DNA of 64,000 bases from Symbiodinium sp. CCMP2592 (taxonomy: Eukaryota; Sar; Dinophyceae; Suessiales; Symbiodiniaceae). Below the pieces are notes generated by a model. It was given only the letters and a program-made list of their open reading frames with translations. It was not told where the DNA came from and searched no databases. Each line of letters starts with the position of its first letter. The first letter of the stretch is position 1. Where the stretch lies: assembly GCA_905221615.1 (NCBI GenBank), contig CAJNDT010002846.1:265001-329000 (forward strand). Direction: 5' to 3'. A program made the position numbers and the translations under genes. This document shows, piece after piece, positions 25,362 through 55,052 of this stretch.

Positions 25362-26005
25362 CCACCAACAGCACCACCAGCACCAACACACCAGCAGCAC
25401 CACCAGCAGCATCAGCACCATCAGCACCATCGAGACCACCACCGCCCACCGCCACCGCCCACCGCCACCACCAAGACGGCCTCCACCAAGACCACCACCA
25501 GCAAGACCACCACCACCATCGCCCCCGCCCCCGCCCCGCCAGCGCCACCACCACCACCACCACCCACCACCCACCACCCACCACCCACCACCCACCACCC
25601 ACCACCCACCACCCACCACCCACCACCCACCACCCACCACCCACCACCCACCCCCCACCACCCACCACCCACCACCCACCACCCACCACCCACCACCCAC
25701 CACCCACCACCCACCACCCACCACCCACCACCCACCACCCACCACCCACCACCCACCACCCACCACCCACCACCACCACCCACCACCACCACCCACCACC
25801 ACCACCCACCCACCACCCACCACCACCACCCACCACCACCCACCACCACACCACCACCACACCACCACCACCCACCACCACACCACCACCCACCCACCAC
25901 CACCCACCACCACCCACCACCACCACCACCACCACCACCACCACCACCACCACCACCACCACCACCACCACCACCACCACCACCACCACCACCACCACCA
26001 CCGTC
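25362..26005. repeat. CAC/ACCACCC low-complexity array
   Basis: It grades from CAC/CAG trinucleotides (25360-25550) into a long run of the 7-mer ACCACCC (about 25560-25770), then into pure CAC triplets (25915-26002). The minus strand is (GGGTGGT)n, a G-rich strand capable of quadruplex formation. Confidence 0.92.
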
Positions 26006-28267: not shown

Positions 28268-29026
28268 TAAGGGTACTTTATCGGAACTCCCATTGAGGGA
28301 TCTACTTTTTGGATTTTTTTTCGGGAGTCTGGGTAAAGGACCCCTTTAGAGAGCCACTTAACCTATACCCTAAGCCTACAAACCCTTCAGATCAGGTGGC
28401 TCTTCGATTGAAGGGTTTGGGCCAGTGGTTTGGGACTTAGGGGTTTAGGGTTTAGGGTTTAGCGGTTTAGGGGGTTAGGACTCAGGGGTTTAGGGGAAAG
28501 TTTAGGGGTTTAGGGGGTTAGGACTTAGAGGTTTAGGGGGCCTTTTCTTCCGTCTTGTGGTTTAAGGTCCCTTATAATACAAGTACCCAATACCAAGAAG
28601 GGAGCTCTTTTTATTCCTAGGTTACGGGGGGATCCCAGCTCCTTTTTCAGCATCAAGAGTGACAAGGTGCTCGGAATGTGTGGCTTTTGCCCTCTAACAC
28701 CTGCGACTCCTCAACCCTACAAGGGTGTGACGGTCAGACTGCCGCAAGACTTCAAAACGACCTGAATGCTTGGAGGTCCCCTTCCGGTCTGTCTTGCTGA
28801 ACAGTGTCCTTCGGGTTAAAAGCTTGGCTTTCCGTTCCTACTTGGGAATTCCACCGGCGTTTGGCCAACATAGTAGCCTACAGACAGCAACCCTTACAGC
28901 AAACCTTAGAGACCCTAAGCCCAAATCCCGATAGTTACTACGCCTCTCTTGAGCTTCAGCATTTGTGCTCGAAGACCCAACAGGGGGTCTGCGTTTTGAT
29001 TTTAGGGCGGGAGAATCCGCGATCGC

Positions 29027-30286
29027 GTTGGGGCAGAACCGCGTAATGCCACGGCTTGAGCAAGGGATACGGTGCGATGGCCGTAGCCGCGCAGTCTACA
29101 GGCCACTTGGATGTAGGGACCGATCAGGCTTGCTGCAAGTCGATCACTGCCTTTGGGAGAGCCAAAAGGTGGCAAGCTGCGCTCAACGTACTCTCAGACA
29201 TCTTCGCATCCAGGGAAACTCCGGGCGTCTGGAGCTTCAGCGCGGCCATATCGGCATGCGACAAAGGCTTGAAGTGGCAGTTCGCGCTGGAACTGTTGGC
29301 GAAGATGACATCTGTCCACACCACGCCAGACGTCATCAGCTACAATGCTGCAATCAGCTCCTGTGCCAAAGGTGGCGCCTGGCAGATGGCCCTAAGTCTG
29401 CTCTTCCGCATGGCAGCTTCCAGGCAGGTGCCAAACATGATCAGCTTCAGTGCCGGCATCAGTGCATGTGAGAAGGGTGCTGAATGGCAGATGGCCTTGT
29501 GCTTGCTTTCCCTGATGCCGGAAGCCAGAGTTGTTCCAGATGTGATCAGCTACAGTGCTGCTGTCAGTGCCTGTGAAAAAGAAGGTGCATGGCAGATGGC
29601 ATTGCGTCTGCTGTTTAAGATGCCAACTGCCAACGTTGTGCCGAATGTGATCAGCGTCAGTGCTGGCATCAGCGCATGTGAGAAGGGCAGTGCGTGGCAG
29701 ATGGCACTGCTTGCATTCTCAGAGATGGAGAACACCAGGATTGTTCCTGACAGGATCAGCTTCAATGCCGGCATCAGTGCATGTGAGAAAGGTGGTGAAT
29801 GGCAGTTTGCGTTGGCATTGTTCTCGCAGATGGCGGAAGCAAGACTTACTCCTAACGACATCAGCTTCAACGCGGGCATCAGCGCCTGCGAGAAAGGTGG
29901 TGAGTGGCAAAGGGCGCTGCTTCTGCTGGCGCAGATGACAGCAGCCGGGGTGGTACCAAACGCGATCAGCTACAGCGGTGCCATCAGTGCCTGCGAAAAG
30001 CGCGGCGAATGGCAGAGGGCCTTGGGCCTGTTTTCTCAGATGCCGGCCGTCAGTGTTGTTCCAGATGAGATCAACTTTAATGCTGGCATCAGCGCATGTG
30101 AGAAGGGCGGTGCATGGCAGATTGCAGTGCTACTGTTGGCTCAGATGCAGAAGGCGAGGATAGTGCCAAGTGATGTCAGCTTCAATGCCGGCATCAGTGC
30201 TTGCGAGAAGGCTGGTGAGTGGCAGATGGCGTTGCTGCTGTTTGCAGAGATGCCAGCACTCAGAGCTGCTCCAGATGTGATCAGCT
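29027..30286 (+). repeat. Duplicated block, copy 2
   Basis: Partner of 23854-25113, constant 5,173-bp offset. Upstream and downstream sequences of the two copies are unrelated at the base level, apart from ordinary PPR similarity downstream. Confidence 0.85.
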
Positions 30287-30705
30287 GCAGTGCCACCATC
30301 AGTGCGTGTGAGAAAGGCTGTGAGTGGCAGATGGCGTTGTTTCTGCTTTTTGGCATGCCTGCAGCCGGCGTAACTCCAAATGTGATTAGTTTCAATGCTG
30401 GAATCAGCGCATGTGAGAAGGGCGACGAGTGGCAAATGGCTTTGCATGTTTTCTCACAGGTACCAAAAGCCAGACTTTTGCCAAACTCGGTTAGCTTCAG
30501 TGCGAGCATCAGCGTGTGCCAGAGAAGCGATCAGTGGCACGTGGCTCTCGAGCTGCTTTCGCAGATGCCTTCCACTAGTGCTGTGCCAGATGTGATAACC
30601 TGTTGTGCTGGTGTCAGTGCTTGCGAGATGGGTGGGGAGTGGCAACGAGCTCTACGATGCGGTCATCAAGAAGCCTGTCCAAATTTCATCAGAGCCTTCC
30701 AGTAG
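29077..30705 (+). CDS. PPR protein, intronless
   Basis: ATG 29077 (gtgcgATGG) to TAG 30703-30705, 542 residues. After a 23-residue N-terminal segment come thirteen complete 35-residue PPR units and a partial last one (SACEMGGEWQRAL), then a short tail (RCGHQEACPNF). The tail resembles that of the gene ending at 21256 (LRHRHQDFCQLF), suggesting a shared original C-terminus. Differences from the paralogue at 23904 include A-L-N-V for A-L-D-V, I-S-V-S for I-S-F-S and N-T-R-I for N-T-T-I. No introns. RNA-binding protein by family; target tentative, see findings. Confidence 0.87.
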   Translation: MAVAAQSTGHLDVGTDQACCKSITAFGRAKRWQAALNVLSDIFASRETPGVWSFSAAISACDKGLKWQFALELLAKMTSVHTTPDVISYNAAISSCAKGGAWQMALSLLFRMAASRQVPNMISFSAGISACEKGAEWQMALCLLSLMPEARVVPDVISYSAAVSACEKEGAWQMALRLLFKMPTANVVPNVISVSAGISACEKGSAWQMALLAFSEMENTRIVPDRISFNAGISACEKGGEWQFALALFSQMAEARLTPNDISFNAGISACEKGGEWQRALLLLAQMTAAGVVPNAISYSGAISACEKRGEWQRALGLFSQMPAVSVVPDEINFNAGISACEKGGAWQIAVLLLAQMQKARIVPSDVSFNAGISACEKAGEWQMALLLFAEMPALRAAPDVISCSATISACEKGCEWQMALFLLFGMPAAGVTPNVISFNAGISACEKGDEWQMALHVFSQVPKARLLPNSVSFSASISVCQRSDQWHVALELLSQMPSTSAVPDVITCCAGVSACEMGGEWQRALRCGHQEACPNFIRAFQ

Positions 30706-32736: not shown

Positions 32737-34091
32737 ATGAAACCTGATGCTATCAGCATCGGCAATCGCATCCGCGGCTGCGCCCGCGAGGGAGATTGGC
32801 CAAAAGCCGTCCACCTCTTCGGCGAGGCTTCGGCGGCCCGGATGGCGCGGACCCTCATCACCTTCAGCGCCTGCATGAGTGCCTGTGTGAAGGGTGAGCA
32901 GTGGCAGCGAGCTCTGCACCTCTTTGCCGAGATGCCCGGTTCAGAGGTGGGTGTTCCGAAAATCAGGATCCTACTATATAGGTTCGAGGTTCTATATTAG
33001 GGTCCCCTATTAAGCCCCCTATGTTCGGAAACCCTTGAGGTGGTGCCAGATGTGGTCAGCTACAACACAAGCATCAGCGCTTGTGGCAAAGGCGGCCAAT
33101 GGCAGCTGTCTGTGCAGCTTCTTTCAGACCTGCAGACAGCCAGGCTCACACCCGACGTTATCACTTTTACTGCCATCGCCTCTGCCCGCGAGAGCGCCGA
33201 AGACTGGCAGAGAGCCCTCGGTTCTCTGTCTGCCATATCCCAAAGAGAGCTGCAGCCAAGTGTCGTTACCTACAGTACCTGCATCACCGCCTGTGAGAAG
33301 CTGGGTTCTTGTTCAGGAATGTAGTTTAAGTTACCATAAATAGGGATCTATAGTAAATTGATATGGTTTCCTTTCTATGGCAACTTCAATTAGAATTCCC
33401 GAAACAAGAACACAGGAAAAGCTCTCACTGGCATTTGGGGCTCCAGCTGCTCTCCGAGATGCTTCGGGCAGGAACCCGGCCGAACGTGGTCACCATCAGT
33501 GCTTGCATGAGCGCCTGCGCCAAGGGTGAAAGTTGGGAAGCAGCCCTGTCCCTTCTTTGGGAGATGCCTGCAAGAAGGCTCCAGAGCAACATCATCAGCT
33601 TTAACTCTGGCCTTAGTGCATGTGAAAGCGCTTCGCAATGGTCTGTCACGCTGGAGGTGTTGAAGTCCATTCCTCAGGCTCACCTCACTCCCGATCTCAT
33701 CACTTTCAACACATCTATGAGCTCCTGTTCGGGAGGTGAAGCGTGGCAGAAGGCCCTGCAACTCTTCTCGGAGCTTCCTGGTCAGGAGCTTGAGCCCGAC
33801 ATCTTCACCTTTGCCGCGGCAGCGAGCTCCTGCGAGAAGGGTGCTTCATGGCAGGCGGCATTCGTGGTGCTCGCAGACATGTCCAGTGCTCGCATCGCAC
33901 CGGAGATATTCAGCCTGAACTCCGCGATCAGTGCGTGCGAGAAGTGTGCCCAGTGGCAAGTGGCGCTGCACCTCCTTTGGCAGATGCCTTCTCTTGGGAT
34001 CTCGCCAGACATCATCAGCTTCAGTGCCACTGCCAGTGCCTGCGAGAAGGCAGGAGAGTGGCAGAGGACCCTTTATGATTCTTACTCTTAG
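32737..34091 (+). CDS. PPR protein, three-exon gene
   Basis: ATG 32737 (cacaATGaaa). Exons 32737-32946, 33040-33296 and 33416-34091 total 1,143 nt (380 residues). Intron 1 is a family-3 hairpin with GT-AG ends; intron 2 is GA-AG and also hairpin-like. The repeats are more diverged than in the other genes here (SACVKGEQWQRAL, SSCSGGEAWQKAL), so this is probably a separate subfamily. About nine 35-residue units are visible. The frame ends shortly after AGEWQRTL. A near copy of gagtggcggaggacgct recurs at about 34201, so the gene may once have continued through a further insertion into the relics at 34201-34290 and 34517-34640. RNA binding by family. Confidence 0.8.
32947..33039 (+). mobile_element. 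Intron 1 (GT-AG) formed by a family-3 hairpin, AGGT borders
   Basis: The word AGGTG spans both junctions (32945-32949 and 33038-33042). Inner ends GGGTGTTCCGAAAAT / ATGTTCGGAAACCC are family-3 termini. Excision gives G-S-E-V-V-P-D. A spliceable transposon whose duplicated target is the AG|GT proto-splice site. Confidence 0.8.
33297..33415 (+). mobile_element. Intron 2 (GA-AG), hairpin-like
   Basis: tgtga|GAagctggg ... aacacAG|gaaaagc restores C-E-K-S-S-H-W. The ends contain gttcttgttcaggaat and attcccgaaacaagaac, imperfect inverted repeats of about 16 bp. Confidence 0.75.
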
Positions 34092-34676: not shown

Positions 34677-34925
34677 AGGGTTTCGGATCGAGCTTGGCCT
34701 AGCATTGCCGATTCCCCAGTGGGCTGTTGACCCACGACTTGTACCACGGTGCGACAAAGTCCGTCGTGGCACCGCTCTCAGCGTCGCCGCCGCCATAAGG
34801 CAAGGTTGCGCCTCCGTTCTGCGCGTTCTTTCGGCGCCAGACCTTGGCGTCGAGACTTGGTGCTGCTGGCCAGGCACCACAGTGCTCCCGTTTTTCGAGA
34901 GCTTTTTACCGGCAAGGCTCCCTCC

Positions 34926-36164
34926 ATGGGCAAGAAGCCTTACTACCCGCAGTACGGTGCAGAATGGTGGAAGGACGACGAAAGCTACAATCGCCAGCCC
35001 GCCGGTGGCAAAGGTTGGCATGTGTGGCCGGGTGCATATGCCTCCTCGCCCAATGCTGCCAATGCCAAAGGCCGCGGGAAGCCCCTTCGCTACGACCAGA
35101 TCCCTCTACCGGACAGCCGGAATGTCTCCAAGGACTTCCCAGAGGAGGAGATCACCGAGAGCCTAGGGGGCGTTATGGTTCGCGATGTGCAGAGGGCACT
35201 TACGACAGCCAAGAAAGCGGATCAGAAGGTCAGAAAACTCAAACAAGAGATTCTGACGAGAAGGGAGCAATGGGCTCTCTACGAGAAGCAAATGAAAGCA
35301 GACTATACGGCGCAGAAACGTCTGTTCCAGCAGGACCAAGAAAGACTCGACAAGGACTTGGAGGCGGCCATCTCTGCTGGCAAGCAAGCAGCTGGATCTG
35401 TGAAGCACTCCATCGACAATGTCCAAAGGGTAGCCTCGGAGGGCAATTCCTGGGAGGAATTGCTGCACAATGCACCCCACATGGAGGTGGAGCCGAGGGG
35501 ATTCTTCGACGAGGCCCTGAACTTGGTCCAGCAGGCAGCCAGCCGGAGGCAAGCCCAATGTCCTCCGCTTTCTGCCGCAGATGCCCAGCTCGGTCAGGCC
35601 TTGCGAGCACACCTACAGGCAACTGGGAGCATCGAGGGTTTTGGTCAGGTCAATACGCCTCCCCAGGAGCCACTCCCCGAGCGTGGGCCTCCACCGGGAT
35701 TTGCTGGCCCACATCCTGGTGCTCTGTATACCACTTCCCCTCCGTCGGATCCTTATCAACTTACAGCAGAGGGGGGTCGTCCGGCTGGAGGCTATGGCCC
35801 TACGACCTCACAACGAGCCGCGGAACGACGCTTTTCTCCACTACATCCGGGTGGGCGCTCTGTCGAGCCTGGCCTGTCTGCAGAACTTCCTTTGGCCTCT
35901 GGCGAGGCCCTTACTGTGGGACAGAAGCTGGACATGAAGCAGGCCGCCGCCATCGCTGCTGCGTTTCGGGCAGCCGCGGCAAACGATGGCAATGGCAGCA
36001 CCTCATCGGTGCCTGCCAGTGGTCGTGCTATGCACCCATTCGGGGTGCCTCCTACTGGTCCACCTCCGCCTGCTCCAGGTGGCTCTGCTGCTTCGGGTGC
36101 AGAGGGTGCAGTGGATCTGGATGGAATGGACGACACTTCCCACCATGCAGAAGAGCCCACGTGA
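34926..36164 (+). CDS. LINE ORF1: coiled-coil, proline-rich protein
   Basis: The first in-frame ATG (ccctccATGG) starts a 412-residue protein. Residues ~1-60 are rich in Tyr/Trp/Gly (YYPQYGAEWWKDD). Residues ~85-165 are charged and Gln-rich (KKADQKVRKLKQEIL, QQDQERLDKDLEA) and look like a coiled coil. The last ~180 residues are rich in Pro, Gly and Ala. The protein occupies the position of a gag-like ORF1, which in LINEs binds element RNA, but I see no CCHC knuckle or RRM. The frame upstream of the ATG is also open but has no good start. Function by position only. Confidence 0.6.
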   Translation: MGKKPYYPQYGAEWWKDDESYNRQPAGGKGWHVWPGAYASSPNAANAKGRGKPLRYDQIPLPDSRNVSKDFPEEEITESLGGVMVRDVQRALTTAKKADQKVRKLKQEILTRREQWALYEKQMKADYTAQKRLFQQDQERLDKDLEAAISAGKQAAGSVKHSIDNVQRVASEGNSWEELLHNAPHMEVEPRGFFDEALNLVQQAASRRQAQCPPLSAADAQLGQALRAHLQATGSIEGFGQVNTPPQEPLPERGPPPGFAGPHPGALYTTSPPSDPYQLTAEGGRPAGGYGPTTSQRAAERRFSPLHPGGRSVEPGLSAELPLASGEALTVGQKLDMKQAAAIAAAFRAAAANDGNGSTSSVPASGRAMHPFGVPPTGPPPPAPGGSAASGAEGAVDLDGMDDTSHHAEEPT

Positions 36165-36592: not shown

Positions 36593-38905
36593 ATGGGTTT
36601 TGCATTATCAATTCTTCCTTTTGAGAGAGCGCCTAACAGCTACATCGGTGGCGCTGGGGTAGCGGCCTCTCACCCTCCTTCTTTACATGGCCACATCACT
36701 GTCTTGCCGGATGTTTGCTCATGTGCGATTTCCCGGCCGCCTCGGGTCTCTTTGACTCGCTTTCCCTCTGCTTCCCCCGCCCGCTCTTCTGTGGCTGCGG
36801 TGGGGTGTTGCCCCGGTGCTTCGAGCTTTGGCTCCCTTCTTCCGCTCCGGGCATATCTTCCTTCCGATCGGGGTATACTCTGCTTTCTTCTGCAGAGTAT
36901 TGCGACGTGGCTTCTTCCATTGTGTCGGGCCCTTTTCGCAATCCTTGGTCTTGCTTTGTGTGGGGTTTTGTGCAACACGCTTCCCACCAGGGACTCTCCC
37001 CTTAGCACCCTCATTAGGCTGCCTTTTAAGGGTTCTCAGACACGGGTCCTCCTTCCTTTGGCTGCCGTTGCTTCGCCTTCTCAGGCTGCACTGTTGTGGT
37101 CGGCTCCGACCAAGCATACGACCGGTAAGACAAAGAGACCCTCGGGAGGTATCTCCTCTATCTGGCGCCGAGCTCTCTTTGCCTCTGCCCTTTTTACCCT
37201 GCCTGTTCCGATTTGGTGCGCTCCTACGCCCGAATGGACTGCAGCCGTTCACACGGCCAACCAGCTCTCGGAGGCTCGTCCTGATCCCTTGCCGGATCTT
37301 CCAACAGTCAGGGTCCCCTCGATCCACCCGGCTACAGCAGGACCAATCGATAACGACTCTCAGCGGGTAGCCCTTGTTCTTGCGCCGGGTTACCGTGGTG
37401 CGAAGGTGCTTTTGCCTCCTGGTCAGCTGCCCGATGCCGAGGTCCTGCTTGCACAGGTTGCCGAACTTATCCCCAATGCACTCATCCCCGCGCCCTTCCG
37501 ATTGGTGCCAGCCTTCCCACAGACAGCCAACGGCTATGCAGTTTTTGCACAGGTGCCACTTTGGCTCCCTGCAGCCCATAGACGGGTCATCGTTATTGAT
37601 GTGACCCCCTGTGAGGGCCCGCTTTTTGCTTTGTTCGGGGATAGTAGGCTTGATTTCTCTGATCTCGAGTACCTAGCCTCCGAGCATCTTGGTGTGCCCT
37701 GGGATGCCTATCTGGGAACCGATACCAATCCCCTCCGGTCCTCTTCTAGGCCTTCGGTTGAGGATGGATATGTTGTCCAGTTTAGGCCCATCCATAACTC
37801 ACCCCCGCCATGGCAGCCCCGTTTCCTTGACATGCTGGTTGAGGAGGAACTTTGGCGAGATGCGCCATATGTCTACGGCGACGGGGATCAACCCACTCGA
37901 TGGGCGGTGCTGCATGAGAGGTCGATCGTCTTTATCACACATGATGGTGTTCTTGACGACGCACTACGCCAGATTATTGCATCCCGTCTACGTTCTCATG
38001 CGGAGCTTCTCACCATTGAGCCTGCTCCGCGTGCCCTCAGCGACTCGGTTGCCTATGCTGGTCAAGCAGTGCATGGCTTGCTCGCTGTTGCGCTCAGATC
38101 AGAACTGGTGGCGTTTGAACCTCCACGGGATGTTCCTCGCTTCTTGGATCTGCGCCCAACTGGCCGTGATGTCACACACATGTTCACTAACACCGCACCC
38201 TTGTCTTCCGACGTCGTTCTGGAGGTTGCTGATACTAGGCCCCCGGATGGTTTTGCCCCTAGGGTTCTTTCTCCTAGTACCGTTGGTGGCCACTTGTCCT
38301 CTTCCTTTTCCGGTGCCATTGTTGTCGGTTACAGCACACACGCTGTGCCTACTGCAGCAGACTCGCCGGAGCATGCCCCCGGTACAGCGACCGATGAGCT
38401 GCCGCGCGGCGTGTCTTCTCCTGCCCTTGCACCCGAGGAAGACGAATCCCCTTACACGGGGCCCGACTCTTCGGCCTCGGATCCTGTCCCTTTTGTTCTC
38501 CTGACACCGGACTGCATCCCTGAAGTGCATTGGCTTGACCTCTCCTTTCCACTTTCGGTGCAAGAATCCCTCCGGGTTCTCAGGACTTTCAGGGTTGGAC
38601 CATGGGACGCCAGCACAGATCTCCTGGTCCCAGTGTTCCCGCAGCCCGACAAAGAGTTTGCCACCCTGCTTGCTTTGCCGCCTTGGGCAGAAGGATGCAA
38701 TTGCGTCTTGGTTGACTCACGTCAACTGCTTGGCAAATTTTATGCTGCCGTCGTTGATAATTGGACACAATGGTCAGTCTTCCTGTCCCGTCTCGGATAT
38801 GAGCTAACAGATCACCATTTTTGTGCGTGGCATACCGCTTACGCCCGGCAGACCGGTGATGCTTTCCCAGGGCGATGTTGTCACGGTGCTATCTGCCTCT
38901 GCTGA
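36593..38905 (+). CDS. LINE middle ORF, first part: membrane-like segment and composite-domain copies 1-2
   Basis: The open frame actually extends further upstream, overlapping ORF1; 36593 is the first ATG after ORF1, so the start is arbitrary. A strongly hydrophobic stretch (LLPLCRALFAILGLALCGVL) lies near 36910-36975. Copy 1 of the composite domain covers 37367-38190 and ends FLDLRPTGRDV. An acidic linker (EEDESPYTGPDSSASDP) precedes copy 2, which begins at 38518 and breaks where this frame stops at 38905; the downstream half of copy 2 continues in the frame of 38823-39950. The switch is either a mutation or a frameshift site. No recognised enzymatic motif. Such a segment between ORF1 and the enzymatic part is unusual for a LINE. 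Confidence 0.5.
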   Translation: MGFALSILPFERAPNSYIGGAGVAASHPPSLHGHITVLPDVCSCAISRPPRVSLTRFPSASPARSSVAAVGCCPGASSFGSLLPLRAYLPSDRGILCFLLQSIATWLLPLCRALFAILGLALCGVLCNTLPTRDSPLSTLIRLPFKGSQTRVLLPLAAVASPSQAALLWSAPTKHTTGKTKRPSGGISSIWRRALFASALFTLPVPIWCAPTPEWTAAVHTANQLSEARPDPLPDLPTVRVPSIHPATAGPIDNDSQRVALVLAPGYRGAKVLLPPGQLPDAEVLLAQVAELIPNALIPAPFRLVPAFPQTANGYAVFAQVPLWLPAAHRRVIVIDVTPCEGPLFALFGDSRLDFSDLEYLASEHLGVPWDAYLGTDTNPLRSSSRPSVEDGYVVQFRPIHNSPPPWQPRFLDMLVEEELWRDAPYVYGDGDQPTRWAVLHERSIVFITHDGVLDDALRQIIASRLRSHAELLTIEPAPRALSDSVAYAGQAVHGLLAVALRSELVAFEPPRDVPRFLDLRPTGRDVTHMFTNTAPLSSDVVLEVADTRPPDGFAPRVLSPSTVGGHLSSSFSGAIVVGYSTHAVPTAADSPEHAPGTATDELPRGVSSPALAPEEDESPYTGPDSSASDPVPFVLLTPDCIPEVHWLDLSFPLSVQESLRVLRTFRVGPWDASTDLLVPVFPQPDKEFATLLALPPWAEGCNCVLVDSRQLLGKFYAAVVDNWTQWSVFLSRLGYELTDHHFCAWHTAYARQTGDAFPGRCCHGAICLC

Positions 38906-41900
38906 GATTGCGCCACTGCTCACCCTGGATTCCATGCTCCTGTCGCGCTCGACCTGGCGGTCTTCCCTTGCGCTTTCTGTTACCCCTCCTCGTTGGGTCT
39001 ACCACGTTCTCACTGATGGCATGCCGATTGTCCTCGAGATTGAACGTCGTACCATTCAGTGCGAACTTGATTTCCGTCACCTTGTGTGTGCCAGGTTGCT
39101 GGGTCAGGTTCATCGCACTTCAGTACATACACCTAGCCCCCGTATCGGTAACAGTGCACCTGGAGGACGTCCATGCCATGCTGTGCTTGTTGTCACGGAG
39201 ACTCTGCCTGCAGTACCTGTGCCTCCAGGACGTGTTCCCAGACTGCAAGGCGTCGTCTTCTTAGATCTTCGCCTTATTTTTAAGGGTATGTCCTGGCAAG
39301 TTGTTGAGGGGAACCACGTCAGCCTTTCTCGTTTAGAGAGGGAGTTCGGCGTTGACGTGCCAGCGGGCTATCGGGTCAGTGTCCTGGGTGGTTCGGCTGA
39401 ACTTATCGGTGATCAGACTATGCTGAGGGTTGAGCATAGATCCACGCTCACTGTTGAATACGTGCCCTCTGAGCCTCCACCTCCACCTTCTTCCACTTCC
39501 CCTGCTTCGGATGGTCCATCGCATGATGGCCCCGACGGTGATCATGGAAACGGCGATGAGGATGACGATTCATCATCTTCCAGTTCAAGCTCGTCACCGT
39601 CTCCCCCAGCGAGACCCAATAAGCGACGGCGCAACCGATTGCCGACCGGCTCTTCGCGCACAGCAGCACATGCTCACGGCACCCCTGGTGCCACAATATG
39701 CCTCCTTGTTGCGACAGTGCCTTGTGCAGCTCACGTCGGGACTTCTGGTCAATTTGAGCATACTGCGCCAGGACGAAAGTTCGTCGCATCCGGTAGGTCT
39801 GCTAACAGATACTTGCAAACCCCTTTCCCCCATAGACTCCTTCACGAAATCGCGATGTCAGGCAAGGACGTCACTAATTCCTCCGTCGGAACAAAAAACA
39901 GTGTATGTTTATTTTGGCATGGAAATTCCTCCGCTAGCCAGGCCACGTAACATGCACTTCTTCGTACTCCGAGTCCTCCGCCAAGCGAAGACATCTTAGT
40001 GCGACAAAACTTTCATCCTGCTGATGTATGCCCATCTCTGACGGCTCCTTGTCATTCCCTTCCCCCTTCGGGTTTAGCCCTGCCTTTTGCCTCTCTCTGC
40101 TGCTCCCCAAGGAGCCCTGGCCTTCCTACTTCTCGCCTCGTTTGACATGGCCTTCGGGTTTAGATTACAGTAACCCCTGCTGCCATCCTGTTCATCGGTG
40201 CGAGCCTCATGGCCACAAGCTTTCTCAGGAGCCTACTGATACGACTGTGACCGGGCAAAGGCTCATCTCCGACTTGCGCCGTGCCACACGAGTGCTTGGG
40301 GGGACTTGGCCAGTGCTTACTCCTGACGGCACAAGGACTGATGAGTTGGGCTCGCATTCCTCGGATTCCGACCCGGAGGACCTCCGAACACAGTGGATTG
40401 CGACGGTCATCTTAGCGCCGTTGTATGCCCCAGAAGTGTTGTCCATCGCCTTACAGTTGCCGGCTACGGTCGGCCAGTGTATTGCTGCTGCACAGACAGC
40501 TCGCCATCCCACAGCACTTCAGCGTTTTCCCTGCCTGGTGCCATTGCACCCCCAACCAATTTATGGTGCCGCATCCTTTCTTGCTGTGCCGGACTGGCCC
40601 ACTCTCAAGGTTCTGGTTTGCGCTGATATGCGTGCCATTGATGGTCGCCTTCTGGCCATTGAAGCTCCCGCCTATGTGGACAGATCTCAACTCCTTCAGC
40701 TGGTCACACTTCCGGTTGAGCGCTCAATTGAGGTTTGTGTTGGGCCTCTCTCAGATTCCCTAGGCCCTGATGCCTCTGTCCATCTGCGTTCTGGAGATGT
40801 GATCTCCTACAGGCCACTCTCCGAGCCGCCACGTGTCTCTTCTACCCTTGAAATTCTCCTCAGAGTTTCCAGGGAGTGGCTTGAGCGCATCGAGCTGCCA
40901 TCGGTTTTTGGAACACCCGCCTACTGCCTGGTTACGCCTGAGGCCATGGTCCTCTTTCAGACCGATTTTGCGCAACCGACGCAATATAGGAATCACATTG
41001 CCAACGCGCTGGGCTACTCTTTGCGTCATCTGCGGCTCCAACCAGCACGGCCCCAGGTTCGTGATGCCTTTTTGGACGGACATTTCTGCCACGCTGTCAT
41101 TGCGGTGTCTGATGCAGCTGCGTCCAATCATGACGCACATGTGCTTCTGGATTGCCGCTCTCTCCTTGCAGGATGGCGCATGTATTGTGCCAGGGATGGT
41201 ATGTTGGACATTCAAGTGGTATTAGCCTCGCACATCAGTGCTTCTTTCTTTGTGTTTTCACGCGACTATGCCCCTGAGCATGTTGAGGTTAGGACTCCTT
41301 TGCCAGTCACTGTGCATCGCGCCCTGGAACAAGTCTCTGCGTGTCGGCATCCTTTACACCGTCTCAGATTCCCGCGACTGCTCCCATGCGTCCCCCAAAC
41401 AGTCCCGGGCCTGGCTACACTTGTCTCGATCCCAGTATGGACCAACCAAGTTTGTGTCCTCATTGACAGCAGGCTCTTGAACGATCGGCTCTTTGCTATA
41501 ACGCTACCAGCTCGGCAGTCAAGAGACGACCTGCTCCGCGTTGCCTCAATCACAGAGGCCGATGGCACTTTGGTCTTTGTTGGGACTCTGCCCTGGCCAG
41601 TGCCAGACCTGCAGTGGGCAACACTTAGGGACGGTGATACAGTACATTCAGTACATTTTTTACCTCCTGATCACATCCCCTTCGCTGTAGTCGAGCTTTC
41701 TGACATGCTCCAAGACCCAGATGCCTGGCATGCAGAACCACATCTGCCGTCCGACCGCCATGACTTTATCTGGGTCATGTCCGCACAGTCGAACTTTGAA
41801 TATCTTGTCCCGCCCGGCCGGCGACAGGAACTGCGTGCGGACATTGCTGCTGTTCTCCACAGCAGCCCTGCGGCACTGGATCTGAGGCCTGCCCTTCTCA

Positions 41901-42050
41901 ATGATGCCGATTTCTATCGAGATGGACATGCCATGCGAGCTGTTCTCGCAATCCTTACAGGGCACCGACGCTCTGTTCCCAGAGACAGGCCACCTGTCTG
42001 TTTTCTGGATCTGCGACCTATTCTGCTTGGGATGTCGTGGATTACTGTGG
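37367..42050 (+). repeat. Four copies of a ~260-residue composite protein domain
   Basis: Copies at about 37367-38190, 38518-39310, 40430-41190 and 41275-42050. Shared landmarks in order: a Leu/Pro-rich lead (LPxTVxxxL); RLVPxxPQ; AxxxxVPxW; VLVDSRxL; a GDV/GDT turn; HAVxAV; and LDLRPIL-G-SW. Copies 2 and 4 are followed by a further shared ~60-residue tail (FKGMSW / LLGMSW, then VPAGYRVSV / CPPGHTVAV) and an acidic Ser-rich linker, so the arrangement is two tandem pairs. I do not recognise the fold. Confidence 0.7.
38823..39950 (+). CDS. LINE middle ORF, second part: rest of composite copy 2
   Basis: The frame is open from 38823 but continues the domain of the preceding frame only from about 38850 (LSQGDVVTVLSA). 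HAVLVVTE and VVFLDLRLIFKGMSW mark the end of copy 2. Then follow a tail (VPAGYRVSVLGGSAEL), an acidic Ser/Asp run (DEDDDSSSSSSSSSPSP) and a basic KRRRNR patch that could be a nuclear-localisation signal. After about 39600 the alternative frame ending at 39999 looks more natural (VPQYASLLRQCLVQL), suggesting another frame change. No start codon of its own is credible; probably part of one long polyprotein. Confidence 0.45.
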   Translation: MRGIPLTPGRPVMLSQGDVVTVLSASAEIAPLLTLDSMLLSRSTWRSSLALSVTPPRWVYHVLTDGMPIVLEIERRTIQCELDFRHLVCARLLGQVHRTSVHTPSPRIGNSAPGGRPCHAVLVVTETLPAVPVPPGRVPRLQGVVFLDLRLIFKGMSWQVVEGNHVSLSRLEREFGVDVPAGYRVSVLGGSAELIGDQTMLRVEHRSTLTVEYVPSEPPPPPSSTSPASDGPSHDGPDGDHGNGDEDDDSSSSSSSSSPSPPARPNKRRRNRLPTGSSRTAAHAHGTPGATICLLVATVPCAAHVGTSGQFEHTAPGRKFVASGRSANRYLQTPFPHRLLHEIAMSGKDVTNSSVGTKNSVCLFWHGNSSASQAT

Positions 42051-42448
42051 CTGAGGGGCGTGTTGACCACCAAAGGCTCCTACTGCGCTTCCAGCCTCGG
42101 TGCCCTCCTGGACACACCGTTGCAGTATCTACCCATGACCAGTTTCCTGCGCCTCTATCAGCCGACATAGTCATTGCCGATGGGCAGGTTTTGGTCGTTG
42201 ATTTTGTCCTAGCTGACTTCGCAGCCAACGGTTGGATCCCGGTCACTGTCAGTCGTGGGTCAGATCCGGAAGAGCCGTCTGATTCTTCCTCTTCTGCCCC
42301 GCTTCCGGGCTCCATTGTCACAGCCGGGCTTCGCAGCCCTGATGCGGGTACCGGGGGCTCCTCCACTGCAGCCTTCGGTGCCACCACCCGGACAGCCTTT
42401 GCGTGTGAGCCACGTGCTGCACCCACCCTTGTCATGTCAGTCGAGTAG
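40028..42448 (+). CDS. LINE middle ORF, third part: composite copies 3-4
   Basis: An 805-residue open frame from ATG 40028 to TAG 42446-42448; the real beginning may lie in the previous frame. Residues ~120-390 are copy 3 (FLAVPDW, VLVCADMRAIDG, LRSGDVISY, HAVIAVSD, VLLDCRSLLAGW) and ~415-675 are copy 4 (LVSIPVW, VCVLIDSRLL, LRDGDTVHS, HAMRAVLAI, VCFLDLRPILLGMSW). The two are joined by a short stretch around FVFSRDYAPEHVEVR. An acidic Ser-rich tail follows (SDPEEPSDSSSSAP), as after copy 2. Intact over 2.4 kb, which argues the region is protein-coding rather than spurious. No catalytic motif seen. Confidence 0.6.
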   Translation: MPISDGSLSFPSPFGFSPAFCLSLLLPKEPWPSYFSPRLTWPSGLDYSNPCCHPVHRCEPHGHKLSQEPTDTTVTGQRLISDLRRATRVLGGTWPVLTPDGTRTDELGSHSSDSDPEDLRTQWIATVILAPLYAPEVLSIALQLPATVGQCIAAAQTARHPTALQRFPCLVPLHPQPIYGAASFLAVPDWPTLKVLVCADMRAIDGRLLAIEAPAYVDRSQLLQLVTLPVERSIEVCVGPLSDSLGPDASVHLRSGDVISYRPLSEPPRVSSTLEILLRVSREWLERIELPSVFGTPAYCLVTPEAMVLFQTDFAQPTQYRNHIANALGYSLRHLRLQPARPQVRDAFLDGHFCHAVIAVSDAAASNHDAHVLLDCRSLLAGWRMYCARDGMLDIQVVLASHISASFFVFSRDYAPEHVEVRTPLPVTVHRALEQVSACRHPLHRLRFPRLLPCVPQTVPGLATLVSIPVWTNQVCVLIDSRLLNDRLFAITLPARQSRDDLLRVASITEADGTLVFVGTLPWPVPDLQWATLRDGDTVHSVHFLPPDHIPFAVVELSDMLQDPDAWHAEPHLPSDRHDFIWVMSAQSNFEYLVPPGRRQELRADIAAVLHSSPAALDLRPALLNDADFYRDGHAMRAVLAILTGHRRSVPRDRPPVCFLDLRPILLGMSWITVAEGRVDHQRLLLRFQPRCPPGHTVAVSTHDQFPAPLSADIVIADGQVLVVDFVLADFAANGWIPVTVSRGSDPEEPSDSSSSAPLPGSIVTAGLRSPDAGTGGSSTAAFGATTRTAFACEPRAAPTLVMSVE

Positions 42449-42474: not shown

Positions 42475-43797
42475 GTGCTCACCTCTATCCTCCTGCATGT
42501 TGTGCCACCCCTCACTTCGTCACCTCCGCATCTCCTTGTTGGGCGCTCCCGTAGTCTGTGCCCTGTGTGCATTGCTTGCTGCCATCCCTTGGCGCTTTCG
42601 GGTGTTAACTGCAGAATCGCTCTGTGGCGGCAGCTTTTCGCTCTTCTTGGCCCAATGTTCACCGCCTTCTTTCTGAGGAGTGCCGTTGCGATGATATGGC
42701 TGAGTTGCCTCCCGATCGCAATTTTGTCTGCTGCTGCCCGCGTTTTTGGCGCGATTACGAGCCTTATTTGCTGTGCTGGCTGCATACTGCCTCGGGGACT
42801 ATCTGCGAACAGACCCTTGTTCTTGTGGATCTTCCTTGTCGCTCTTCTCTGCACTCTTCCAGCGGTCGCTGCGGCACCGCCGGAAACCAGCGGGCCTCTG
42901 TCTCGTGGACTTTCTCCTGCTGAGATCGCTGCTGCCCTCACCGCCGGTAGCGCTGTTCGATCTGTTGCCACGCCCTGTCGCAGGCGTCTCGGTCACATTC
43001 CCAGCCCTGCAGATACTGGCCACCATGCAATTCCCCTTGCGACTGACCTGCTAAGACCCCGGCCACAGGCTGCCTCTTCTGCGGATCCGCCCCTGCCGGG
43101 ATCTAGTCGCATCTCACTTGCTGACACAGTGCCGGTTACCTCCTACCAAGCATCTTGCCTGGGGTTGCAGTCCTGCTTGCCCAGTCATGGCTTCGGCTAC
43201 GATCCTGACCTGGATTGGCTGGACAATGATCTTTGCAGCCTGGTGGAGTCAGGTCGTGTGAAGGAGCCTGTCCTGGGCGCTGTCCTGCGTACTGTCTGCT
43301 GGCATGATGCTGGGCAGCCAGCCCCGGACTCCCTTGCCATATATACTGACGGGTCGGCCCCAAGAGATCCCTTGGATCCTAGTCCCTGTGCTTGGTCCTT
43401 CAATGTTTGGGCCCTCTGTGGCGGTGCTCGTTACTTTGTTGGACACTCCGAAGCGGTCGCGACGCACTTGGGCACCCCATGGTACCTCGGGGAATGCCGG
43501 CACGATGCGTTGACTGCCGAACTTATGGCTCTTTGTTGGGCTTTGGCATGGCTGATCGAGGTCGGCCACCGATTTGCCGTTCCGGCCACCCTCTTCTATG
43601 ACGCATGCAGCGCAGGAGGTGGTGCTTTTGGATCCTCCAAATCGCCTGTGGGAGCAGATAAAGAATACCAACAGCTTTCCAGTCTTGCGGGTTCTTTGCG
43701 GCATCTTGCCGCAGCGCTTCTTCCGCTACATCACCAGCAGTCTGGGCAACGAGCTTGCGGATCTCTTCTCGAAATGGGTACGGTGCCTCTCGGATGA
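42475..43797 (+). CDS. LINE RNase H region (N-terminal to the endonuclease)
   Basis: The frame is open from about 42450. Two hydrophobic stretches lie near the start (MIWLSCLPIAILSAAARV, FLWIFLVALLCTLPAVAAA). From about 43320 it shows type-I RNase H landmarks: LAIYTDGSAP (first Asp), LTAELMALCWALAWL (Glu) and TLFYDACSAGG (second Asp). The last motif (GNELADLF, final Asp) is found in the +1-shifted frame at about 43742-43768, so a single-base shift lies near 43.7 kb. In RNase H-bearing LINE clades known to me the domain follows the RT; here it precedes EN and RT. It would degrade the RNA strand of the cDNA hybrid. Confidence 0.68.
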   Translation: MLTSILLHVVPPLTSSPPHLLVGRSRSLCPVCIACCHPLALSGVNCRIALWRQLFALLGPMFTAFFLRSAVAMIWLSCLPIAILSAAARVFGAITSLICCAGCILPRGLSANRPLFLWIFLVALLCTLPAVAAAPPETSGPLSRGLSPAEIAAALTAGSAVRSVATPCRRRLGHIPSPADTGHHAIPLATDLLRPRPQAASSADPPLPGSSRISLADTVPVTSYQASCLGLQSCLPSHGFGYDPDLDWLDNDLCSLVESGRVKEPVLGAVLRTVCWHDAGQPAPDSLAIYTDGSAPRDPLDPSPCAWSFNVWALCGGARYFVGHSEAVATHLGTPWYLGECRHDALTAELMALCWALAWLIEVGHRFAVPATLFYDACSAGGGAFGSSKSPVGADKEYQQLSSLAGSLRHLAAALLPLHHQQSGQRACGSLLEMGTVPLG

Positions 43798-45418
43798 TCC
43801 ATGGCAGCGCTGTCTGCCACAATGGGTCTCTGCCTTCGCTGCCCACGATCTCCGCCAATGGGCTTGGACGTTCTTCTGTTCTGGCCCCGACATGTTGTCG
43901 TGCTACACCTTTGAGTCTGAAGCTCGACGCCTCCAATCGCACCGTGCCCTGCCTGCTGTTGCGCCCATGCAGGGCATTCGGACCACCACGCGCCCGGCTG
44001 AGGATGTTAGATGTGACCTCCGTGTGGTGTCGTTCAATGTCCTTACCATGCGTGACCCTACCCTCCCTGGCCACGGAGCTGTCACTACCACGCTTAGCAA
44101 TGATGTGGGCTTTCGCCTCTTTGGCCGCAAACATGTCTTGCAGCGCTCTCTGGAAGAGTACAGCCCGAACATAGTCGGATTCCAGGAGACCCGTCTTCCA
44201 GATGACATCACCCAGCATGATGACTCCTACTATATCTTTCAGTCTCGGGCCAACGACCAAGGTGTTGGAGGGTGCGCCTTGTGGCTTTCGCGGCGCATTC
44301 CTTACGCCACTCAGGGCTCTGAAAGCCTTGTCTTCCACCCATCTCATGTCACTGTCGTTGGTTTCTCATATCGACATCTGATAGTGCAGATTTCCGCACC
44401 CCGCCTTCAGCTTATGGTTGCTGTGCTGCATGCTCCGTCACTGTCGAAGCACCCCTATGCCGAAGTTTCCTCCTTCTGGGACCAACGCTGCCGCGAGATA
44501 TCCCGACGCCCCGACGGATCTGACTTCTTGATCTTAGTTGACGCCAATGCGCGTCTTGGAAGCGCAGTTTCAGATAGTGTGGGAGATCATGATGGTGAGG
44601 AGGAACAGGAAGCGGGTTCCCTGTTCCACACATTCGTCATTCAGCTGGGAGGATATGTCCCAGCAACTTTCAGCGCACACCATCAGGGGCCCTCCACCAC
44701 GTGGCGGTCTGCCCTGGGCGGCCGTCATAGGATAGATTACATCGTTACCCCGCAAGCCTGGTCTACATATGGTCTCACCACCTCGGTTTTGCAGAACTTC
44801 GAGGCCCTACAGCTCCGAGAGGACCATAAGCCGGTTGCCCTAAGCTGTGCTTTCGGGTATAAGGGTAAGCCCACCTCTTACACTGACAGCCGTCGTCGTG
44901 CGATCCGCCCTGGCCTCCCCCGTACCACTACAGAGTCTGCACGTGTCTCTGGTGCCTTTGCCCACATTCCCTGCTTGCCTTGGTCCCTTGATGTGGACCT
45001 GCACTGTCAGGTTCTCTCCCAGTCCTGGTGTGCTGCCGGCACGCAGCTTCTTGATGATGCTGCGATTGCTCCGCGTGCTCCTTATGTGCCCCCTGAGGCC
45101 CTCCCGATTATCCAACGTCGCCGGGCTCTCTGTGTCTATCTCCGGCAGGAGGAGAAAGAGACCTGCCGTCGGCGTCTTCTCATCGGTTTTGCCGCCTTCC
45201 GGCTGGCATGTTCCGGTGGACGGTTTACAGCTGCTGCTAGGGCCACTGCGGATCATTGGATCGCGGCCATGGACCACAGCATTGCTGTTGCATGGGCCTA
45301 TTTCCGTGATCACGGGTTGCAGTTGCGCCGCCTTGTCTCTCAAGGTAGGCGACGATACCTTCAAGGCCTTGTCTCCACTGCCTCAAGCATCGACACCCGG
45401 AATCCCAAAGAACTTTAG
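43574..45418 (+). CDS. LINE endonuclease (APE type) plus linker
   Basis: The real content of this frame begins near 43720 with the RNase H end (GNELADLFSKW). The endonuclease follows: VVSFNVLTMRD (Asn), IVGFQETRL (Glu), LILVDANARLG (Asp/Asn), GRHRIDYIV (Asp) and REDHKPVALS (His), the standard series of exonuclease-endonuclease-phosphatase LINE nucleases that nick target DNA. About 170 residues of linker run to a TAG at 45416-45418. Translation beyond that TAG continues in the same frame into the RT, so the stop is a single in-frame interruption, either mutational or read through. No independent start codon is apparent. Confidence 0.78.
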   Translation: MPFRPPSSMTHAAQEVVLLDPPNRLWEQIKNTNSFPVLRVLCGILPQRFFRYITSSLGNELADLFSKWVRCLSDDPWQRCLPQWVSAFAAHDLRQWAWTFFCSGPDMLSCYTFESEARRLQSHRALPAVAPMQGIRTTTRPAEDVRCDLRVVSFNVLTMRDPTLPGHGAVTTTLSNDVGFRLFGRKHVLQRSLEEYSPNIVGFQETRLPDDITQHDDSYYIFQSRANDQGVGGCALWLSRRIPYATQGSESLVFHPSHVTVVGFSYRHLIVQISAPRLQLMVAVLHAPSLSKHPYAEVSSFWDQRCREISRRPDGSDFLILVDANARLGSAVSDSVGDHDGEEEQEAGSLFHTFVIQLGGYVPATFSAHHQGPSTTWRSALGGRHRIDYIVTPQAWSTYGLTTSVLQNFEALQLREDHKPVALSCAFGYKGKPTSYTDSRRRAIRPGLPRTTTESARVSGAFAHIPCLPWSLDVDLHCQVLSQSWCAAGTQLLDDAAIAPRAPYVPPEALPIIQRRRALCVYLRQEEKETCRRRLLIGFAAFRLACSGGRFTAAARATADHWIAAMDHSIAVAWAYFRDHGLQLRRLVSQGRRRYLQGLVSTASSIDTRNPKEL

Positions 45419-47011
45419 GCAGCCATTCGCCGGGCATTTCCCGCTGCCCGGTCCGCTAAGAGATCCGGCACTTGCCCTCTTCCAGCCCTGGAACTTCCCT
45501 CCGGTGAACTTGCAACTACTGCATCTGAACGTGCGGCTTGTTGGAGGAACCATTTCGCGGATCAGGAGGCAGGCGTTGAGGTCACACCCTCTGAGTATGT
45601 TGCTGCCTTCCAGCAGTATCATAGGCCATGTGAGCACTTTGTCTTCGATGCTTCTGTTCTTCCTGGTCTGCTCCAAACGGAGTCCATAATCCTTTCATTG
45701 AAGAACGGCAAGGCGTGTGGGCCCGACGGTGTCACGGCTGAGATTCTGAAACTCCGTCCTGCCTTGTCGGCTAGGGAACTTCTCCCTCTGATGCTGAAAT
45801 CTTCCCTCTCCATCCGCGAGCCAGTCGCGTGGCGAGGTGGCGACTTGGTTTTGGTTGCCAAAAAAGCCGGCGTTGCACTCACCTGCTCTCACTACCGCTC
45901 AGTCCTGGTTGCCAATGTTATGGGGAAGGTCTACCATCGTGGCATACGCTCCCATCTCACCCCTCTTCTCGAAGAGAGTCAGCCTCCCTTGATGGCTGGT
46001 GCCACCGCCGGAGCTGGCATTGAGATTCCGGTCCTTGCCATCAAAAGCTTTCAGCTTTTGATGGGCGCACAACGTCGCCCCTGGGCGGTTGTCTTTTTTG
46101 ACTTGCAAACTGCATACTACGCGGTTCTCCGCCAAACGATAGCTGGCAATGTGGAGTCTGATGCTTCCTTGTTGCAGCTTCTGCACAAGCTTCGTCTTCC
46201 CCCGCAAGCTCTCACGGAACTGAAAGACAAGCTTCATCTCCTTGCAGAGCTCCCGACTCTTGGAGCGTCTGAACACCTCCACTCCCTGGTGCGTGACCTA
46301 TTTACAGGAACATGGTTTAGAGTCAGCGGGGACGCTGTTCTCACGCTTACGAAGCGGGGATCTCGCCCTGGAGACCCGCTTGCCGATGCTTTGTTTGCTG
46401 TCACCCTGTCGGCCTACCTCAAGTCGGTGTCGCAGGCCCTTGGGGAGGCGGACATGCTCCCCGATTTGCCGCACTGCCGGAACCGCCCCCTGTGGGCGGA
46501 CGACGACTCTGCGTCATGTCTCGGAAGTCCAGCATGGGCAGATGATTTCACGCTCCCACAAACTGGGACCTCACATACAGACCTTGTAGTGAGAGTTGCT
46601 CGCTGCACCCAGCTAGTGGTGACCCACGGGCGTTCCCTGGGGATGACGATTAAGTTCGGAGTGGATAAGACCGCCGCCTTGTGCTGCTCCTCGGTGGAAC
46701 GGTTTGCCATGCCTCAGTTTCAGGTTAACGACGAAGGCCTTCACCTGTTGCCCGTGCCCGACCCGCTCGGGGAAGGCCTTGTTCATCTGCCTATCTTACC
46801 GCCATCTCGGGGGTATTGTCGTCTCGAATTGTGCAACTGCCCCGGATTTGCACTTTCGTTACTCTCGTGCTGCGGGGCTGGCTCGTTCTCTCCGGCGCAG
46901 GCTGTTTTCTTCTCCGGCTTTCGATTTGGCCACCAGGCGTGTTCTTCTGCGTTCCTTGGTGGTGTCGAAGTTTGTTCACACAAGTGCTTCACTTGTGTTG
47001 CGCACTGCTGA
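45419..47011 (+). CDS. LINE reverse transcriptase
   Basis: Same frame as the endonuclease, directly after the TAG. RT landmarks: NGKACGPDGVTAEILK (template grip), YRSVLVANVMGKVYHR, AVVFFDLQTAYYAVLR (motif A, Asp), TKRGSRPGDPLADALFAV (motif B) and SPAWADDFTLP (motif C, Asp-Asp at about 46537-46542), then GMTIKFGVDKTA. A partly duplicated WADDD appears 17 residues upstream of the catalytic WADD. The thumb motif YRHLGGIVV is in the next frame (from about 46780), so a frameshift lies near 46.77 kb and the last ~80 residues of this frame are not genuine. Target-primed reverse transcription by family. Confidence 0.82.
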   Translation, partial: AAIRRAFPAARSAKRSGTCPLPALELPSGELATTASERAACWRNHFADQEAGVEVTPSEYVAAFQQYHRPCEHFVFDASVLPGLLQTESIILSLKNGKACGPDGVTAEILKLRPALSARELLPLMLKSSLSIREPVAWRGGDLVLVAKKAGVALTCSHYRSVLVANVMGKVYHRGIRSHLTPLLEESQPPLMAGATAGAGIEIPVLAIKSFQLLMGAQRRPWAVVFFDLQTAYYAVLRQTIAGNVESDASLLQLLHKLRLPPQALTELKDKLHLLAELPTLGASEHLHSLVRDLFTGTWFRVSGDAVLTLTKRGSRPGDPLADALFAVTLSAYLKSVSQALGEADMLPDLPHCRNRPLWADDDSASCLGSPAWADDFTLPQTGTSHTDLVVRVARCTQLVVTHGRSLGMTIKFGVDKTAALCCSSVERFAMPQFQVNDEGLHLLPVPDPLGEGLVHLPILPPSRGYCRLELCNCPGFALSLLSCCGAGSFSPAQAVFFSGFRFGHQACSSAFLGGVEVCSHKCFTCVAHC

Positions 47012-48035
47012 GAGCAACCGCCTCTGGGAAAGGTACTATGTTGCGCTCTTGCGTAACCTTCTCAAGCGTGTCTCCGCAGAGAAGCAGGCACATTCCTACG
47101 AAGTACTTCGTACTGCCAGGGCTGCTTCTCCGCCGCTTGCTTTGGCTAAGGCGCGCGCACAGTTCCTTGTCCGGCTCTTCCGGAATGGACCGCTAGCGCT
47201 GAGGGTTTTCCTTCATGATCACTGGGTCACGCATCCTGCCTCGTCCTGGTTAGGACAGCTTGAGTCCGACGTTCGCTGTGTCGGTGCTTTCGTGCCCACG
47301 GCTCTTACCTTTTTTCGGCCACAGCACCTTGTTGCTGATCTGCTTGAAGCCACCTTTGAACGGCCCAAGTGGTGGCTGCAGCAGGTGACCGCCGCTGAAA
47401 GGGCCTTCCTTTTGGACCTCGAGGCTTGGCGTGTCCAGCGGTTGCACAGTGTCGCCGACCGGCGCCCAACTGTCCCTCGTCCTTTCATCTGCGATACATG
47501 CGGTGATGGATTTGTGCTCCGCAAACATCTGCATGCACATATGGCCCGATCACACCGGCAATTTGCCCCTGCCCGCCATTATGCCGTATCCGATACCTGC
47601 ATTTCTTGCATAAAGTGGTTTCGGAACGTGACTCAGGTCCAGATGCATCTCCGACACGCTCCTGAGTGCCTTAGGCGCGCCAGTCGCCTCATCCCCCCGC
47701 TGTCGATCGAGGATGTGCGTCGACTGGAGGCGCCAGACAAGCAACGACAGAAGCTCATCGCGGCTGGCCGTTGGCAAGCCTTCCAGGCGCTCCCAGGTCC
47801 TCGTCCGGCGCCCGTGACCTTCGGACCACGCCTGCCAACCGCGGCTGAACGCAGGCCGGACAATTACCTCTCCGAGGATGTGGATCTCGCTTCCCTGGTG
47901 GTTCGATTTGAGCCCCGCGAGAGCGACATAGCCTGGGTCGATCGCCACATCGCCTCGGCTAGTGTGGAGGGTGTCCGCGAGTCTGCGTGTCGTTTCTGGC
48001 TGAAAAAGCCCTCTTTGTCTCACCAGAATTCCTAG
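46704..48035 (+). CDS. LINE RT thumb and C-terminal zinc-finger domain
   Basis: Genuine from about 46780 (YRHLGGIVVSN) to TAG 48033-48035. A long helical thumb/connection region (AKARAQFLVRLFRNGPLAL) leads to one C2H2-type finger (FICDTCGDGFVLRKHLHAHM, then ARSH) at about 47486-47557 and a second Cys/His cluster (CISCIKWF ... MHLRH) at about 47597-47660. C-terminal Cys/His motifs after RT are common in LINEs and are thought to help bind element RNA or target DNA. The 3' untranslated region is only about 58 nt. Confidence 0.75.
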   Translation: MPCLSFRLTTKAFTCCPCPTRSGKALFICLSYRHLGGIVVSNCATAPDLHFRYSRAAGLARSLRRRLFSSPAFDLATRRVLLRSLVVSKFVHTSASLVLRTAESNRLWERYYVALLRNLLKRVSAEKQAHSYEVLRTARAASPPLALAKARAQFLVRLFRNGPLALRVFLHDHWVTHPASSWLGQLESDVRCVGAFVPTALTFFRPQHLVADLLEATFERPKWWLQQVTAAERAFLLDLEAWRVQRLHSVADRRPTVPRPFICDTCGDGFVLRKHLHAHMARSHRQFAPARHYAVSDTCISCIKWFRNVTQVQMHLRHAPECLRRASRLIPPLSIEDVRRLEAPDKQRQKLIAAGRWQAFQALPGPRPAPVTFGPRLPTAAERRPDNYLSEDVDLASLVVRFEPRESDIAWVDRHIASASVEGVRESACRFWLKKPSLSHQNS

Positions 48036-51821: not shown

Positions 51822-51991
51822 TGACTGGGCTATTGTCGTTCGAGCGGTGGAATGTTCTCTGGCTTTTCGTCTAGCGTGAGACACAGGACATGCAGTTGAG
51901 GTTCAACTGTCTCGCTGCTTTTCTTCCTGTGTCAAGCTCTCACTTCAGGCCGAAATGTAGTCACCGGGGCATGGAAAGGTGCCGAGGCACC
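51822..51991 (+). repeat. Split direct repeat A1
   Basis: 170 bp starting tgactgggctattg; repeated at 54861-55030. It contains the ATG (51890) of the RT frame. Confidence 0.9.
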
Positions 51992-54265: not shown

Positions 54266-54664
54266 TGGCTGCCGACATCCTGCCTAGAATCGTGTACATC
54301 CCCAGCGAATCCAATCCTGCTGACAACCCCTCGCGAGGCAAACACTCCCGGAGGTGCACCGTGCGCAAGACAAAGCGCACTGAGAGAAAGCGGACCTGCT
54401 GAGAGTCTTCGTTTCACCTTTCCTTTCGTCAAGCACTGGCGCCCACTGTCGCCTACCTGTGCGTCACCGGGCATGCAGTGGCGTCGGCTGTCCTCATCGG
54501 CAAGGGCTGTGTCGCCAACCGGCTGCAGGAGAGGCCGTGTTGCTGTTTCGCGCAGGCAAGGCTCGCGAGCTGCTCCACTCGCGATTTCTGGCTTTTCTGA
54601 TATTGTTACTTCTGCGCTGCGCTGGATTCTTCGTCTGCGGCACTTCGTGCCAGTGCGGGGTGAT

Positions 54665-55030: not shown

Positions 55031-55052
55031 CCGCCCAACCCACCCTTTTAAC

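Follow-up and report, generated by a model that had tools for sequence, protein, structure and literature searches.

A 64,000-nucleotide stretch of the genome of the dinoflagellate Symbiodinium sp. CCMP2592 (GenBank assembly GCA_905221615.1, contig CAJNDT010002846.1, positions 265,001 to 329,000; here called the window, with all positions below counted from its first letter) carries on its forward strand, at ~34.7 to 48.0 kb, a long interspersed nuclear element (LINE) in which an array of four repeat units lies ahead of the enzymes. The region makes up the N-terminal half of the principal polyprotein in a large, multicopy LINE family, and it is virtually beyond doubt that the repeat array belongs to a LINE. 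We somewhat favor the view that this array acts as a nonconjugatable, ubiquitin-like arm for docking or scaffolding, a function suggested by its predicted fold and composition. In 5′-to-3′ order, the element comprised an ORF1-like frame (ORF, open reading frame), the unit array, an RNase H-like region, an APE endonuclease, a reverse transcriptase (RT), and a zinc finger (Table 1). The endonuclease domain scored above its Pfam cutoff; the RT, with its motifs present, matched PF00078 below the cutoff both in the window and in the related locus L014 (E value of 6e-4 in the latter).

The four repeated stretches proposed in a first-pass annotation, made from the letters of the window, were borne out when its translated frames were compared with one another by BLASTP: copy 4 matched copy 1 (E value of 5e-10), copy 3 matched copy 1 (6e-8), the N-terminal part of copy 2 matched copies 3 (3e-7) and 4 (4e-5), and its C-terminal part matched copy 4 (5e-6). 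An independent hidden Markov model (HMM) of 41 units from other loci, from which window sequence was excluded, was run on all 807 six-frame window segments of at least 40 amino acids and detected exactly four units (E values of 3e-24 to 2e-88), the sole additional row having an E value of 77. The units proved to be ~320 to 380 residues long, rather than ~260 as first estimated, with a start well upstream of the RLVPxxPQ landmark. The window copy is damaged: the frame of unit 2 switches between positions 38803 and 38808, and unit 3 has lost ~108 codons in frame, so that its tail and the following spacer, both retained in L003 and L004, are gone. The arrangement of two pairs around a spacer had been read correctly, but a tail that seemed special to copies 2 and 4 did so mainly because copy 3 had decayed; in intact elements, the tail was present on all four units.

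Related elements were sought across 1.1 Gb of the genome (5,383 contigs), with only the best candidates scored. With unit 4 as the query, at least 134 matches were found (the best 134 of 1,152 candidates); among those listed, 29 lay in frames of 4,000 codons or more and 107 in frames of 1,500 codons or more, the longest unit-bearing frame reaching 5,233 codons. Ten long-frame elements were taken, each as two neighboring 10-kb stretches (L009 to L028), and all ten carried four units (five in L009) in one frame continuing towards the enzymes, upstream of the RNase H, the endonuclease, and the RT; the frame of L015/L016 was interrupted within the RT. The RNase H motif lay 5′ of the endonuclease motif in eight of the ten by pattern and in the other two (L010 and L020) by eye. 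Among the listed rows that matched a related RT, 42 of 103 (a total in which one element, C2691, is included twice) were preceded on the same strand by a listed unit 4, at distances of 4.0 to 8.0 kb (median, 4.2 kb). The 61 rows without a listed unit 4 are not evidence of its absence, and all six that were opened carry units. The first-pass suggestion that a modular accessory protein sits between ORF1 and the LINE enzymes is supported by both the ten long-frame elements and these six RT-bearing loci. Unit number was variable: only two units were seen in L030 (G000:C2:1532500-1537499), of which 5 kb was read, and five in L009. Hydrophobic, membrane-segment-like stretches, which are unexplained for a LINE protein, flanked the array, occurring 75 to 185 residues before unit 1 in all ten elements and up to ~400 residues before the RNase H in nine; ahead of unit 1, the frame may be partly noncoding.

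The units fell into groups by their position in the array. In a tree of 44 units (the 41 from other loci plus three from the window, its unit 2 being omitted because it is split), units 1, 3, and 4 each formed one clade of 11 (support of 0.95, 0.91, and 0.98, respectively); seven of the ten unit 2 copies formed one clade (0.83), three grouped with unit 3, and the extra unit of L009 was isolated. These clades indicate that the four-unit layout predates the spread of the elements, although position 2 has undergone some reshuffling. Matching units were compared 20 times, in five chosen pairs among seven of the ten elements; the proportion of synonymous differences (pS) was near saturation, at 0.70 to 0.83, versus 0.15 to 0.46 for nonsynonymous differences (pN), which shows purifying selection at all four positions in the units compared. 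Three residues were invariant across the 44 units, namely the Q of a PxPQ motif, one G in module C, and, in module D, the D of LDxR; all 38 B rows shared the W before module B and the G of its GD loop, and 38 of 39 D rows contained D-x-R.

The modules just named, A to D, are subdivisions of each unit, and they revealed a second level of repetition. In a profile comparison, B and D matched along 66 columns (P value of 1e-6; probability, 91; score of 31.7, against at most 12.1 in 60 column shuffles), so that every unit contains two or more homologous modules. The remaining five module pairs did not rise above their own shuffles, and no homology was found between A and C. By sequence, the units are as unrecognized as first described: no meaningful match was found in Pfam or NCBIfam, and no significant row was found in the PDB. 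The best Pfam and NCBIfam rows (E values of 0.042, PANTS-like and in one of the 44 members, and 0.33) were not meaningful, and the best PDB rows, an antifreeze-protein repeat (0.014) and protein S (0.041), were taken as chance. Scans of IMG/VR and GTDB with short patterns, mainly sensitive to close relatives, found no relative.

The label of unrecognized held less well for the predicted fold. Modeled alone by AlphaFold2, module B was predicted as a ubiquitin-like beta-grasp, that is, a β-β-α-β-β fold, with a predicted local distance difference test score (pLDDT) of 81.1 and a predicted template modeling score (pTM) of 0.66; confidence was ~50 to 58 for module D, and modules A and C had low model confidence and matched neither B nor D by profile. 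Several points weigh against this assignment and would fit repeats with a new fold and a misleading prediction: the alignments used were thin (5 and 6 window sequences), Foldseek E values were never below 1e-3, and the model of a whole unit reached a pLDDT of only 48. Yet two predictions concurred on module B, the structural matches were nearly all of one fold, and the module B profile placed two ThiS/MoaD-type chains of the PDB at the expected place, albeit nonsignificantly (E values of 0.63 and 1.6), values that leave ThiS/MoaD membership by sequence unproven. A new fold is considered improbable; modules B and D very probably share the ubiquitin fold, and this could plausibly, if less than probably, hold for all four modules. 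No retrotransposon protein appeared among the fold-search matches, which is uninformative, as predicted cellular structures lay outside the libraries.

The composition of the units was as distinctive as their layout. The units were acidic (mean net charge, −10.4; 1 of 44 positive), and lysine made up 96 of 13,918 residues (0.7%), compared with 421 of 15,159 (2.8%) in the part of the same frames from the RNase H to the end (Fisher test, 1.8e-44), being lower in the units in all nine elements counted (L015/L016, one of the ten, was dropped, its 3′ half being broken). Asparagine, which like lysine has AA-type codons, accounted for 1.5% of the units and 1.3% of the enzyme parts, and arginine for 6.9% and 7.7%. 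Base composition, computed for 17 of the 41 units and for the enzyme parts of 2 of the 10 elements, predicted 1.4% lysine in the units, where 0.5% was observed, and 1.5% in the enzyme parts, where 2.6% was observed; asparagine was under its expectation in both alike. Spacers were intermediate (30 of 2,378 residues), and four pentatricopeptide repeat (PPR) frames of the window contained 3.0 to 3.6% lysine. The 380 residues before the RNase H were, however, as lysine-poor as the units (21 of 3,420; P = 0.73), which speaks against a tight link between lysine depletion and the ubiquitin fold. A role in nucleic acid binding, raised in the first-pass annotation, or in RNA chaperoning, on the model of ORF1 proteins from other LINEs, has a parallel in SF3A1, whose ubiquitin-like domain can bind RNA, but it is made less likely by the charge of the units; with almost no lysine in them and a separate, basic ORF1 protein (4.6% lysine) already present, we regard this role as improbable.

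No conserved C-terminal GG was found: of the 38 rows for B, 7 had any GG near the module end, as did 5 of the 39 for D. Such scarcity argues against the modules being ubiquitin-like spacers after which host deubiquitinases cut the polyprotein; this explanation would suit a polyprotein of at least 4,000 codons with ubiquitin-like modules, and viral polyproteins with ubiquitin inserts were among the BFVD matches, but it appears highly improbable. Because no such GG is conserved, the array would be neither conjugated nor clipped as ubiquitin is. In the reading that we favor, the polyprotein would normally carry four tandem units, as two pairs around a Ser/acid-rich spacer, ahead of the RNase H, APE endonuclease, RT, and zinc finger; each unit would contain the homologous modules B and D, with B a ubiquitin-like beta-grasp and A and C perhaps likewise; and the resulting arm would offer a protein-docking surface or a scaffold for the retrotransposition complex. 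A docking or scaffold role of some kind is probable.

What such an arm might bind is a more tentative matter. Low lysine content could allow an arm working near the host ubiquitin machinery to escape ubiquitylation; lysine deserts are reported in proteasome shuttles with ubiquitin-like (UBL) domains and in E3 ligases, in which added lysines raise ubiquitylation (PMC10169902). A role tied to the host ubiquitin system is nevertheless doubtful on present evidence, and it is more speculative still that a whole LINE group carries a nearly lysine-free, uncleavable poly-ubiquitin mimic of 8 to 16 modules per protein that recruits or evades host ubiquitin receptors, such as the proteasome or Cdc48-type factors. 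A close rival, itself unlikely, is that the units polymerize into a particle, gag-like or filament-like, that is unconnected with the host ubiquitin system, as the retention of tandem units in pairs and the structural matches to bacterial multi-ubiquitin proteins (9d5b and 9cd2, one described as a filament) would suggest; self-assembly by itself leaves the low lysine content unexplained.

Table 1. Parts of the LINE in the window, with the evidence for each
Feature	Position	Strand	Evidence
ORF1-like frame, 477 aa, coiled-coil-like, upstream of array	34731..36161	+	Open frame; Pfam rows weak, below cutoff
Hydrophobic segment directly before unit 1	37169..37225	+	Located in sequence
Unit 1	37241..38287	+	HMM built on other loci, E 2.5e-46
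Module B of unit 1	37553..37813	+	
Module D of unit 1	38126..38350	+	
Unit 2, N-terminal piece, 5′ of frameshift	38342..38788	+	HMM, E 3.3e-24
Unit 2, C-terminal piece, 3′ of frameshift	38814..39443	+	HMM, E 5.1e-41
Module D of unit 2	39240..39476	+	
Pro/Ser/acid-rich spacer after unit 2, basic patch at its end	39477..39641	+	Sequence
Unit 3, module D tail deleted in window copy	40226..41227	+	HMM, E 7.4e-74; deletion relative to L003/L004
Module B of unit 3	40586..40837	+	
Unit 4	41231..42190	+	HMM, E 2e-88
Module B of unit 4, modeled as a ubiquitin-like beta-grasp	41432..41683	+	AlphaFold2 pLDDT 81.1, pTM 0.66; PDB structural matches
Module D of unit 4	41984..42220	+	B-D profile match
Hydrophobic segment 5′ of RNase H	42814..42879	+	Located in sequence
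RNase H-like region, YTDGS to GNELAD, two frames in window copy	43342..43777	+	Motifs; PF00075 E 2.4e-4 (below cutoff) in relative L014
APE-type endonuclease region and linker to RT	44027..45415	+	PF03372 E 2.7e-7; motifs
Reverse transcriptase	45419..47008	+	PF00078 E 0.041 (below cutoff); motifs; matched by L014 RT
C2H2-like zinc finger near C terminus	47490..47555	+	Motif; PF13894 E 0.11 (below cutoff)

Elsewhere in the window, seven PPR-repeat frames lay upstream of the LINE (3839-4918, 7340-8788, 12223-13725, 18829-19926, 23841-25361, 29047-30705, and 33357-34091), and the 95% DNA identity between 23787-25260 and 28950-30433 indicates a recent duplication. These PPR arrays, the size of the genome, and the type of LINE are in keeping with a dinoflagellate host. 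A 796-amino-acid frame at 51822-55251, with RT-like motifs by eye and no Pfam row, was flanked by direct repeats (170 nucleotides, 99%, at 51822 and 54861; 199 nucleotides, 100%, at 54665 and 55053) and may be reminiscent of DIRS-like elements. Long tandem arrays were present at 25361-26002 and 56870-57699, with ACC-type repeats and a 72-bp unit (11.6 copies, 94%), respectively.

To our knowledge, the accessory domains of LINEs are few and mostly single enzymes. If confirmed, a conserved, predicted ubiquitin-fold repeat array under purifying selection would represent an accessory protein of a kind new to retrotransposons and would suggest that protist retrotransposons exploit the ubiquitin system or protein self-assembly, an idea that the lysine depletion makes testable; searches of the open-license literature, judged by their listings, turned up no LINE described as having ubiquitin-fold repeats. 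Like the SymbioLINE-Dnmt elements of Symbiodinium, which carry a DNA methyltransferase, the family has an accessory domain upstream of the RT; unlike them (PMC5890265), it has its repeat array within the enzyme frame instead of a methyltransferase in ORF1, and when the ORF1 frames of the window, L013, and L027 were searched against Pfam, no methyltransferase was listed. The LINEs TRAS and Jockey likewise have an additional domain, a single enzyme of the viral-type helicase kind (PMC6338049), whereas the units here are repeated and nonenzymatic looking. The RNase H, which is N-terminal of the endonuclease and RT in the window and the ten elements, sits at the C-terminal end of ORF2 in the LINEs described in PMC5348765.

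Among cellular proteins, the best Foldseek row for module B was a bacterial multi-ubiquitin protein, a group (PDB 9cd2, 9d5a, 9d5b, and 8u38) that also has tandem ubiquitin-fold modules in one chain but is short, with 12 to 16% identity in the aligned part and no sign of common descent. With ThiS, MoaD, and ubiquitin, module B shares its predicted fold and a GD loop before the last strand, without the significant sequence match or the conserved C-terminal GG. As in the UBL-domain proteasome shuttles RAD23A and UBQLN1, a ubiquitin-like module would be housed in a lysine-poor protein; those are host proteins whose deserts are largely disordered (PMC10169902), whereas here the folded units are depleted too. 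The family appears to combine a LINE with an accessory array of a new type, accessory domains in LINEs as such being already known.
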